Assembly: GCA_021228405.1 (NCBI GenBank)
Contig: JAJQRF010000011.1
Span: forward strand, 62,001 to 126,000
Origin: Pyrinomonadaceae bacterium
GTDB taxonomy: Bacteria > Acidobacteriota > Blastocatellia > Pyrinomonadales > Pyrinomonadaceae
Direction of reading: 5' to 3'
Length of the DNA: 64,000 bases
Shown: positions 1 through 62,408 of the stretch, piece after piece
Numbering within the stretch: position 1 is the stretch's first letter
Layout: the number at the start of each line of letters is the position of its first letter
Translations under genes and position numbers: made by a program
Notes under the pieces: model-generated
What the model saw: the letters and a program-made list of their open reading frames with translations, nothing else
Told to the model about the DNA's origin: nothing
Databases searched by the model: none

Positions 1-407
1 GTGTAATCCTGATCTAATCCTGCAATGATGACGCGCTTACCGTTATTGGCGAGTTCGGTTACGGCTTTGATGAGTTCCATATCGAAAAACTGTCCTTCGT
101 CGATGCCGACCACCTGCGTGTCGTCTTCCATTTTCGCCATCATTTCGGCGGCGGTCATCACGGGTTTTGAAACGTGAGTCATTCCCGAATGCGACGCGAT
201 CTGTTCAATTGAATAACGATCATCGATCTTCGGCTTGAAAACCTGAACCTTCTGACGCGCGATCTGGGCGCGTTTCAATCTTCTGATAAGTTCCTCGGAT
301 TTTCCCGAAAACATCGAACCGACAATGACCTCAATCCATCCCGCATCGCCGTTTTGACGCGACCGACGACGTTCTTCCGTATTATCGAAAGCAAATTCTT
401 CAACCAT
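1..407 (-). CDS. tdk: Thymidine kinase, 5' part (cut by window edge)
   Basis: Type II thymidine kinase, which phosphorylates thymidine with ATP in the pyrimidine salvage pathway in the cytoplasm. Reading from ATG at 407, 135 codons are visible. They hold the P-loop [15 protein letters not shown] near residues 30-45 and the Walker B-like DEGQFF near residue 109, the two signatures of the family. The C-terminal half, with the zinc-binding cysteines and lasso loop, lies beyond position 1. The first 20 residues are an acidic and Arg-rich extension before the usual start of the family. The region upstream holds the 20-bp repeat array described separately. Confidence 0.93.
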
Positions 408-608
408 TTTTTACGTTAATTTTCCTTAATTTCAGAGTTTGAAAACGCTAAGATTATCACAATTTGAAAGATGAGCCAAAACAGCTTTTCATAAGTGATA
501 ACGGATAACTGATAGCTGATACTTCAATCCCAAATTCGATCACATTTCTTTGTGAGCACGTTTCTGACTCATCACTCTCGCTTTATAAGCTCTTTTTTTA
601 CTCAAAAA

Positions 609-810
609 CATACCAAATGGTATGTCAACGCTCTGTGAAGTGCGAAAACATACGATTTGGTATATAAACGCTCTCCACAGAAGGTTGACGCACTCTACAG
701 AAGGTTCAACGTTCTGTGAGGTGCGAAAACATACGATTTGGTATGTTTTCGCACCTCACAGAAGGTTCAACGTTCAAAAAAGTGCGTCAACGCTCTCCAC
801 GAAACGACGG
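609..810. repeat. Tandem mosaic array, about 20-bp period, 10 units
   Basis: This lies in the 450-bp gap upstream of tdk, which has no convincing gene. Unit anchors (the C after AA) fall at 609, 629, 649, 669, 689, 710, 730, 750, 771 and 791, so the spacing is 20 bp with two steps of 21. Each unit is a 16-nt core plus a 4-5 nt spacer such as AAAA or TCAA. Cores are combinations of half-words, for example CATACGAT+TTGGTATG, CGCTCTGT+GAAGTGCG and CGCACCTC+ACAGAAGG. The last is nearly the reverse complement of CGTTCTGT+GAGGTGCG two units earlier. A small ORF across it looks fortuitous. Confidence 0.85.
713..762. repeat. Perfect 22-bp inverted repeat inside the 20-bp array
   Basis: Arms 713-734 and 741-762 are exact reverse complements around the 6-nt loop GATTTG. 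The hairpin is formed by one array unit and its inverted neighbour. As RNA or cruciform DNA it would be very stable. There is no T-run after it on either strand, so a terminator role is not supported. Confidence 0.85.
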
Positions 811-858
811 ATAAATGATAAGTGATAGTTAAATCTTTTCGTTATCCACTATCCGTTA

Positions 859-2541
859 TCACTTATTACTTATCACGAAATTTGGCTGGTTTGCATTTGA
901 ATTTGCGTTTGCGTTGATGTTTTGAGATTTGTTTGAATTTTCTTCTTTCGATTCATTTCCGTCGGCTTCGCCCATTAATTTCAGAACTATCGAATCGATC
1001 GTTCCGACACTGCTTTTTTGGCGCGTTTCGTTGTTGACCATCACGGCAAACGTGATGATTTCGCCGTCTTTTCTCTGCGCGTAACCTGCGAGCGAATTGA
1101 CGAATGAGATCGTTCCCGTTTTTGCCAGAACTCTGCCTTTTACTTTGCCGAATCTGCCGCCGAGCGTTCCGTCCGTTCCGCCGACAGGCAGAGAATCGGT
1201 AAATTCCTTCGCAAATTTGCTTTGCGCCGCGAAAATAAAGGCTCTTGCGAAAACTTCGGGGGTCACGAAATCCAATCTCGAAAGCCCCGAACCGTCGGAA
1301 ATCTGCACTTCGTCCGCCGCAATTTTATGTTCGAGCAACCATTTTTTGACGAGTGCCGCGCCCGCGATGTCGTCGCCGCGCACGTTTTGCGGAAGCTGAA
1401 TCGAATTCGGAACTTCCGCGCCGAATTTCTTGCCGATGGTGCGCAAAAGCAATTCGGCAATGATGTTGACCGAATGTTTATTCATCCGCCTGACGGCTTC
1501 GCCGAGCGTCTGGCTCTGCACCGAAGCGAGTTCCTGCGCCTTTGAAACGTCGAGCGCATCCGAAGATTTCCAGCTCCGCGTTTTCGTTTCGCCTTCGACC
1601 GAAATTCCTTTCTTTTCTAAAGATTCTTTGAGCGTTTTGGCAACCAAGCCCGACGGATTGTGCACCGACACGCGTGCGCCGAAGGCTTTCGTGTTTCCCC
1701 AAACGTAAAATTCATTGTCGTCGAGTCCGCGTTTGATGCCGCCCGCTTCGTAATTCGCATCGCGGTTCGCGTTATTTATCGGTGTCGGGTTGCCGACCGT
1801 GACGTTCAGATAATTGGTGTTGGCGCGTCCTTCGCCGTTTTCGACGTTGACGAAAGCCTGATTTTCGTTGATCGTAAGAGCCGATGCTTCCGCGCCGTAA
1901 TACCATTGCAGTTCGTTCCACGTCCAGCCGTCGCCGATGGTGTCGCCGCGAAAATAACTGTCGTCGCCGACGATATTTCCCTTCACGCGCTTCAAGCCCT
2001 TTTCCTGCAACTGAACCACGAGATTTTCGAGCGATTCGGCATTAAAATCGGGTGCGCCTTCGCCGTAAACGATTAAATCGCCGTTCAACGTTCCGTCCGA
2101 ATCGATCTGATTTTCGGCATAAATGCTCGTCTTCCAACGAAAATCCGCGCCGAGCCGGTCGAGCGCGACAATTGCCGTCAGGGTTTTCTGGATAGAAGCC
2201 GGATTGAAAAGTTTGCGCCCGTCACGCGAACATAAAACACGCCCGTCCTTCATCGAAACCGCGATCACGCCCCAACGCGCATTTGCCGACGGGCTTTTTT
2301 CGACGGCTTCGTTAATTTTGGCGCACAAAGCGACATCCTCGGGCTTTTGCGAAACAATCAGAGGATTCGACAAATTAATGTTCGGCGCGGAAACATCGAA
2401 AATTTCCGCCGGTTCGTCCGAAACGATTTGAGTATTTTGATTTACTTCAGGCTGATTTGAACGGCATCCTACAAAAAGGGAAAATGTAAGACATAAAAAA
2501 ATTGCCGTAAAACGTCGCCCGGCAACTAAAAAATTAAACAT
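859..2541 (-). CDS. dacB: D-alanyl-D-alanine carboxypeptidase/endopeptidase (PBP4-like, family S13), lipoprotein
   Basis: Periplasmic penicillin-binding protein that removes the terminal D-Ala or cuts peptide cross-links in peptidoglycan. It has 560 residues. A lipobox (LFVGC) puts the lipidated Cys at 26. The three active-site motifs are in order: SIQK (Ser116, Lys119), SVN in MNKHSVN, and KTG at 474-476. The insertion between the first two motifs is typical of S13 enzymes. The last 35 residues are Asn/Ser-rich low complexity. The E. coli enzyme is soluble, so the lipoprotein anchor is a variation. Start at ATG 2541 agrees with the signal peptide. Confidence 0.92.
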   Translation of the reverse strand: MFNFLVAGRRFTAIFLCLTFSLFVGCRSNQPEVNQNTQIVSDEPAEIFDVSAPNINLSNPLIVSQKPEDVALCAKINEAVEKSPSANARWGVIAVSMKDGRVLCSRDGRKLFNPASIQKTLTAIVALDRLGADFRWKTSIYAENQIDSDGTLNGDLIVYGEGAPDFNAESLENLVVQLQEKGLKRVKGNIVGDDSYFRGDTIGDGWTWNELQWYYGAEASALTINENQAFVNVENGEGRANTNYLNVTVGNPTPINNANRDANYEAGGIKRGLDDNEFYVWGNTKAFGARVSVHNPSGLVAKTLKESLEKKGISVEGETKTRSWKSSDALDVSKAQELASVQSQTLGEAVRRMNKHSVNIIAELLLRTIGKKFGAEVPNSIQLPQNVRGDDIAGAALVKKWLLEHKIAADEVQISDGSGLSRLDFVTPEVFARAFIFAAQSKFAKEFTDSLPVGGTDGTLGGRFGKVKGRVLAKTGTISFVNSLAGYAQRKDGEIITFAVMVNNETRQKSSVGTIDSIVLKLMGEADGNESKEENSNKSQNINANANSNANQPNFVISNK

Positions 2542-9904: not shown

Positions 9905-9921
9905 TGTAGTTTACGGGAAGT

Positions 9922-10007
9922 TTGCAGGTAGTTTTCAGAAAGTTCACAGGAAGTTGATAAAAGTTTATTTTCCTAAACTCTGCAACTTTCTGAAAACTAC
10001 CTGCAAA
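9922..10007. repeat. 24-bp perfect inverted repeat between waaA and efp
   Basis: Arms 9922-9945 and 9984-10007 are exact complements (core GCAGGTAGTTTTCAGAAAG) around a 38-nt loop. The element fills the gap between two minus-strand genes. No T-run follows on the minus strand, so a simple terminator is not clear. Confidence 0.8.
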
Positions 10008-10019
10008 TTTTCCAAAACC

Positions 10020-14474: not shown

Positions 14475-14538
14475 TTAATATTAAAAATGAACTCAAAAAT
14501 GTCGGCATTAATATTAAAAATGAACTCAAAAATGTCGG
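14475..14538. repeat. Two tandem copies of a 31-bp sequence, period 33 bp
   Basis: Copies 14475-14505 and 14508-14538 are identical (each contains AATGAACTCAAAAATGTCGG). They lie in the 149-bp gap upstream of the carbonic anhydrase gene. They could be a regulatory duplication or recent slippage; no palindrome is present. Confidence 0.85.
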
Positions 14539-19427: not shown

Positions 19428-19460
19428 AATTTTCTCCGACGGAAATGCAGAAATCGTTTT

Positions 19461-19754
19461 TGCCCGCAAATAATCTTTTTTCGCCGGCAAATTTACTTTT
19501 TTCGCTCTCCGAGAATATTTATTTGCCGGCAAATAATATGTGTTTGCTGGCGGAGAAAGTTATTATGCTCTCCGGGAAAGTTCATTTGCCGGCAAATAAA
19601 CTCTGATTGCTCTCCGAGAATGATTTTTTGCTCTCAAAATATCTCTGTATGCTGGCGGAGAATGTTTATTTGCACTCTAAAGTGATTGGTTTGCGAGCGG
19701 AAAAACTTTCTCCGCCAGCAAACACATATTATTTGCGAGCGGATTTTGCTTTCC
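19461..19754. repeat. Tandem mosaic array, exact 21-bp period, 14 units
   Basis: This fills the 337-bp gap upstream of the DUF4349 gene; no gene lies in it. Anchoring on the G of (T/C)GC, units start at 19462, 19483, 19504, 19525, 19546, 19567, 19588, 19609, 19630, 19651, 19672, 19693, 19714 and 19735: every step is 21. Each unit has a 16-nt core of two half-words, for example TTTGCCGG+CAAATAAT, TTTGCTGG+CGGAGAAA and TTTGCTCT+CCGAGAAT, then about 5 AT-rich bases. Cores recur in both orientations. Confidence 0.93.
19532..19733. repeat. 30-nt perfect inverted repeat within the 21-bp array
   Basis: 19532-19561 and 19704-19733 are exact reverse complements over 30 nt, including the spacer bases on both sides of the core TTTGCTGGCGGAGAAA. 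Inversion or copying therefore acted on units with their spacers. The arms are 142 nt apart. Confidence 0.9.
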
Positions 19755-19764
19755 AAAAAACAAA

Positions 19765-60536: not shown

Positions 60537-60634
60537 GATTTTGCCCACGAAACACACGAAAAGCACGAAAAAAGGCAAAAACAATTTGTCTTATTTTTCG
60601 TTTCTTTCGTGTATTTCGTGGGCAAAATCTTTAT
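60537..60634. repeat. Long palindrome between convergent genes, copy 1
   Basis: Arms starting AGATTTGCCCACGAAACACA and ending TATTTCGTGGGCAAAATCT are largely complementary around an AT-rich centre. It lies between convergent genes and is repeated in inverted orientation at 62305-62408. Confidence 0.85.
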
Positions 60635-62308: not shown

Positions 62309-62408
62309 GAATTTTGCCCACGAAATACACGAAAGAAACGAAAAAGAACATAAAATTATTTTGCTTTTTTTCGTGCTTTTCGTGTATTTCGTGGGCAAAT
62401 CTTCTTAA
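62305..62408. repeat. Long palindrome between convergent genes, copy 2 (inverted)
   Basis: About 100 bp, reverse-complement copy of 60537-60634 with a few differences (CACGAAATACACGAAAGAAA on the left, TTCGTGTATTTCGTGGGCAA on the right). Confidence 0.85.

Follow-up and report, generated by a model that had tools for sequence, protein, structure and literature searches.

What kind of element is formed by ten short cores that recur every 20 bp between two genes? The question is raised by an array at positions 609-806 of a 64,000-nt stretch (the window) of a Pyrinomonadaceae (Acidobacteriota) genome. The array lies between the genes for thymidine kinase (3-407, start at 407, running off the window; Pfam PF00265, E 3.7e-32) and a D-Ala-D-Ala carboxypeptidase of family S13 (859-2541, 3' end towards the array; Pfam PF02113, E 2.4e-90), both on the minus strand. 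A consensus scan of window 300-1000 revealed no terminator- or promoter-like site at the array, and window 1-21000 had no Rfam match. Nothing in phages or plasmids matched the array. Viral contigs contained seven 16-mer matches, all of them single, which were taken as chance, and a phage or plasmid origin was rejected.

The ten 16-bp cores start at 609, 629, 649, 669, 689, 710, 730, 750, 771 and 791. The step is 20 bp, twice 21 bp, and the spacers have 4 nt, twice 5 nt. CATAC-type cores are near-perfect palindromes: core 1 (609-624), an end unit of the form CATAC-6-GTATG, core 3 (649-664) and core 7 (730-745). The other cores combine the half-words CGCTC, CGCAC, CGTTC and CCTTC with their complements. 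These are core 2 (629-644, CGCTC...GTGCG), core 4 (669-684, CGCTC...GAAGG), cores 5 and 8 (689-704 and 750-765, both CGCAC...GAAGG), cores 6 and 9 (710-725 and 771-786, both CGTTC...GTGCG, each after a 5-nt spacer) and core 10 (791-806, CGCTC...AAACG), a degenerate end unit. Core 7 is the centre of a long hairpin, a perfect inverted repeat at 712-763 whose 23-bp arms, 712-734 and 741-763, enclose a loop of 6 nt (735-740).

Identical 6-mer pairs 15-170 bp apart (window 605-806) were found at distances of 20k to 20k+2 in 79/80 cases, whereas 1000 dinucleotide shuffles of the array had on average 1.0 and never more than 12 on-step pairs. The repeated-8-mer score, direct plus inverted, was 72 (shuffle maximum 10). 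The periodicity was far above that of the shuffles, confirming the original prediction of ten anchors on a 20-bp spacing (21 twice), and the cores do occur in both orientations, as predicted. The perfect hairpin that it described is present, but one pair longer than the 22 bp given, and its two-part core of 16 nt has the right length but is better read as a 5-nt arm, a 6-nt centre and a 5-nt arm. The architecture had also been equated with that of the other array of the window (19460-19760, cores such as TTTGCCGGCAAA). The two have a common design, but the latter has a period of 21, not 20.

An own-genome search showed that the words of the query array recur only in arrays at C18:225020-225255 and C7:898665-898726. 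The CATAC core pattern occurred at seven places in the 5.72-Mb genome, three in the query array, three in the C18 array and one in the C7 array. All seven were inside these arrays, and no solitary core was found. The C18 array is colinear with the query array across the last four units, with the CATAC cores inverted between them. The C7 array has three units, its end units being similar to the query array, and core 1 matches the end unit of both the C18 and the C7 array (minus-strand reading, then TTTTT). Among 119 genomes of the family, the query array was matched by its own genome only. The suggestion that such arrays are locus-specific was not borne out: besides the three loci of the query family, genome-wide searches found three for the TTGCAG family, five for F1 and six for F2.

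Arrays of the same design, built from other words, were found throughout a 1.27-Mb sample (22% of the genome). Intergenic identical 8-mers per 10 kb numbered 28.4, 28.8, 12.5 and 10.9 at distances of 21, 42, 63 and 84 bp, and 10.5 and 10.0 at 20 and 40 bp, with only 0.4 at 41 bp. Collection by periodicity yielded 41 candidate arrays, 32 of period 21 and nine of period 20, with a median length of 213 bp and many unrelated word sets, so the prediction that the design is kept while the words differ held genome-wide. Extrapolation suggests about 180 arrays in the whole genome. The catalogue came from a thresholded detector, with hand-set boundaries for the query and C18 arrays. Two probable coding repeats (C7:665908 and C7:524013) were removed by hand before counting, and three weaker candidates (C7:451483, C7:540663 and C7:622387) were retained by hand. 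Predicted ORFs covered less than 60% of 33/41 arrays; genes were simple ORF calls, and intergenic counts are therefore approximate. Higher-order periods of 42, 63 and 81 bp were present in the arrays. The uniform step is compatible with one generating process and also with one shared constraint.

Between neighbouring units with at least 60% identity, 187/196 steps equalled the array's own period (exactly 21 in 159/164, exactly 20 in 28/32). These units differed at 1095 of 3961 compared positions, by 569 transitions and 526 transversions. The array pairs 869646/730486 and 451513/540664 were gapless across 190 and 149 bp, the register of the first being uncertain because adjacent offsets score nearly equal in periodic sequence. 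F1, an element of 337 bp, is present with identical sharp ends at four loci unrelated to one another (C7:17913, C17, C14 and C7:238638). Its copies have net lengths of 337, 337, 338 and 337 bp, at most 1 bp apart, and mutually differ at 26-37% of positions. Their six pairwise alignments held 615 mismatches versus 14 gaps, and two were gapless. In bacterial spacers, indels usually amount to a tenth or so of substitutions. Compared with this, small indels look depleted several-fold in the arrays, which is the main evidence for a constraint on the step, somewhat biased by a detector that favours regular arrays.

F2 consists of a 17-bp core and a 4-nt variable spacer at six loci, without a unit order common throughout. 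Its core has 27 exact matches genome-wide, every one of them inside the six arrays and none solitary, and 20/21 within-array intervals were multiples of 21. Of 86 F2 spacers, a count that includes a few stray matches outside the arrays, 49 were distinct. Five consecutive spacer pairs were common to F2 loci (shuffled mean 0.8; 0/2000 shuffles as high), which points to block copying. Alignment of two TTGCAG arrays showed a complete extra 21-bp unit in one of them, with no other large difference, and two gaps of 1 bp. On one side, the homology between the arrays C7:200573 and C18:154743 continues for 67 bp beyond the arrays, and copying thus involves more than units. The F2 array at C20:19388 has at least seven near-identical units, broken by a masked stretch, and looks like a recent expansion.

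Conserved columns clustered in the 26 arrays with enough units for this comparison (mean neighbour correlation 0.15 vs. -0.05 expected; P<0.05 in 8/26), as a core beside a variable spacer. The dispersion of column variability, 2.5, was not greater than the 3.3 of a neutral simulation. Dyad symmetry was significant (P<0.05) in 22 of the 37 arrays with enough units and not in the other 15, and arm covariation was weak (8/37 arrays). Curvature by 10-11-bp phasing was rejected, as GC autocorrelation at lags 10/11 was 0.002, which did not differ significantly from a null of -0.026 (sd 0.018). As a class, the arrays have a strict step, small multi-copy families and a core/spacer structure, and carry no coding or RNA-wobble signal.

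Arrays prefer gene 3' ends and convergent junctions. Among spacers of at least 120 bp, they were held by 15/58 convergent, 22/216 tandem and 4/108 divergent ones (convergent/divergent odds ratio 9.1, P=4e-5), a comparison valid between orientation types and not in absolute terms, since arrays lengthen their own spacers. A joint scan of 71 flanking proteins showed mixed genes of 129 Pfam families, none with more than three members, and a gene family adjoining the arrays was rejected. The search for an associated protein, proposed with the original prediction, found none, and the flanking genes are unrelated.

Ten relatives (40 kb each) had heptamer repeats and no such array in non-coding DNA. 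Among 17 further genomes (7-40 kb each), one, G025 from another genus, had a period-21 array; it was the only one of the 27 sampled relatives with such arrays. On its contig C63, a 35-kb span contained three period-21 arrays, whose words, by eye, do not resemble those of the host genome. The other G025 stretches (about 330 kb) had no array outside predicted ORFs.

We tentatively interpret the query array as a member of a dispersed group of non-coding, BIME-like intergenic elements whose sites keep helical phase, probably so that DNA can be bound cooperatively. Such an element would be a run of ~12-17-bp DNA sites, often dyad-symmetric, whose step is constant at 20 or 21 bp. As this step is about two helix turns, all sites are on the same side. 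The step may be kept because a dimeric or oligomeric putative DNA-binding protein occupies neighbouring sites cooperatively on one face, and the arrays could perhaps serve as a boundary or supercoiling sink at transcription-unit ends. They would gain and lose whole units and invert cores within palindromes, and blocks of units would be copied from locus to locus. No search found a binding protein for the arrays, and because the families have no common consensus, one protein cannot read all of them by sequence. If helical phase were selected, mixtures of 20 and 21 within one array should be tolerated, yet they are rare. The missing 10/11-bp sub-period in composition, the dyad-less arrays, the neutral-like dispersion, the weak arm covariation and the array-less relatives also speak against phased binding.

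The strongest rival to phased binding is that the arrays are selfish or neutral repeats with a fixed writing step. Slippage and fold-back template switching would lengthen them, recombination or transposition would disperse them, and the 20/21 step would reflect the machinery that generates them, or descent from a single ancestral array, rather than any use by the host. This is possible, if rather doubtful. It agrees with the higher-order periods, the mutation-like proportion of transitions to transversions, the inverted cores between homologous arrays, the consecutive spacer pairs common to F2 loci, a column dispersion like that of the neutral simulation, and the small number of arrays close to promoters. 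The scarcity of small indels beside many substitutions argues against it, as does the F2 core, conserved next to a variable spacer at six loci, and no process working in constant steps of 20/21 nt is known to us. Tn7- and Mu-like transposons carry multiple transposase-binding sites at their ends, and the 20/21-bp units could have the same role in non-autonomous, MITE-like mobile elements. The F1 copies, with identical sharp ends at four unrelated loci, resemble MITEs, and the small dispersed families of three to six loci would fit as well. However, inspection by eye showed no target-site duplication consistent across the four copies of F1, colinearity between F2 copies is incomplete, and the flanking genes are mixed. 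An expansion of REP-type Y1 (RAYT) transposases was not seen either, since the host genome has nine, within the range of 0-16 in 29 other genomes. We consider mobile elements improbable.

Two further explanations have less in their favour. Transcribed 3' untranslated hairpins, acting as terminators or stabilisers, would account for the 3'-end preference and for the strong self-complementarity of many arrays, with folding z scores of -12.4 and -15.0 for the query array. Against such RNA elements, several other arrays fold with z near 0, and dyad G-T and A-C mismatches on the transcribed strand are balanced (76/73 in ++ arrays, 60/64 in -- arrays), so RNA base pairing is not the kept feature. 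Without wobble asymmetry, and with neither an Rfam match nor a terminator-like site in the regions scanned, the RNA hairpin reading was rejected as very unlikely. Degenerate or real coding repeats, in which seven codons make 21 bp, are scarcely credible. They could apply to the 8/41 arrays with a predicted-ORF overlap of at least 0.6, but codon phase was significant (P<0.05) in only one of the 22 period-21 arrays with enough units, paralogous copies likewise showed none (differences by codon position 42/40/42), and period-20 arrays cannot stay in frame.

A bolder claim goes beyond membership in a BIME-like group, namely that this is a new class of bacterial DNA element whose defining feature is spacing, not sequence. 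It would comprise dozens of unrelated families on a two-helical-turn step, kept against indels at transcription-unit ends, and either read by a general machinery that senses phased arrays or written with a 20/21-nt step. We regard this as somewhat unlikely. Should the step be under selection, the arrays would amount to a large natural experiment on how function in the intergenic regions of bacteria can rest on spacing alone, without fixed sequence, and ought to point the way to an abundant putative DNA-binding system at the gene ends of Acidobacteriota. Should it stem from a generating process, that process would be a new mode of producing tandem repeats at a constant stride.

A literature search, with most subscription journals and all preprints outside its coverage, found no recognised description of such arrays. 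Minisatellites or VNTR loci have tandem units, gain or lose whole units and show higher-order periods. The present arrays are similar in their tandem units, in homologous arrays one whole unit apart and in their higher-order periods, and differ in being locked at 20/21 across unrelated sequences, in their dispersed families and in their conserved core next to a variable spacer. Sites about two helical turns apart on one face are likewise found in plasmid iterons and phased operator arrays; unlike these, the arrays are not near one cognate gene and have many word sets per chromosome. CRISPR arrays have near-identical repeats and unique spacers of at least 20 nt, whereas here the spacers have 4-5 nt and the cores are divergent. 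Heptamer intergenic repeats are known from cyanobacteria as STRRs. The TAACTGA heptamer repeats of Beggiatoaceae are, in the account of PMC4679880, tandem, intergenic, of fixed unit length and widespread in the genome, all of which the arrays share. Heptamer repeats have a 7-bp unit and one recurrent word, however, in contrast to 20/21 bp and many word sets here.

Closest are BIMEs and REPs. In the description given by PMC2817692, BIMEs are likewise mosaics located between genes, built of short palindromic units that occur in both orientations at regular spacing, and are protein-binding sites with suggested roles in chromosome organisation and termination. The arrays differ in their 20-21-bp units, 16-17-bp cores and many families of few loci, in the lack of solitary units in the two families tested (27/27 and 7/7 cores in arrays) and in a host genome without an excess of Y1 transposases. 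REP families, as characterised in PMC3733652, carry a tag, GTAG or CGTC, at the base of their palindrome. Such a tag was not general here, with five cases over 41 arrays (CGTC in four, GTAG in one), a case being an array whose tag copies reached at least half its number of units. As the REP tag was not general and the two families tested had no solitary units, we filed the class as a variant of intergenic mosaic repeats, not as REP/BIME proper.

Other repeats were noted in the window. GATAACG-like heptamer repeats lie on both sides of the query array, at 491-521 and 807-876, in opposite orientations, and the 807-876 stretch is itself an inverted pair. Such heptamer hairpins are common intergenic elements in the host genome and its relatives, and the heptamer arrays of the host genome form a class separate from the 20/21-bp arrays. 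A short array with a period of about 11/22, followed by an inverted copy, is located between two genes at 9906-10018 and may be a small or decayed class member. Inverted arrays of nine-mers (CACGAAAAA / TTTTTCGTG) at the ends of genes (60540-60620 and 62319-62393) belong to another repeat class. At 14475-14538, an AT-rich unit of 33 bp is exactly duplicated in tandem within a spacer.
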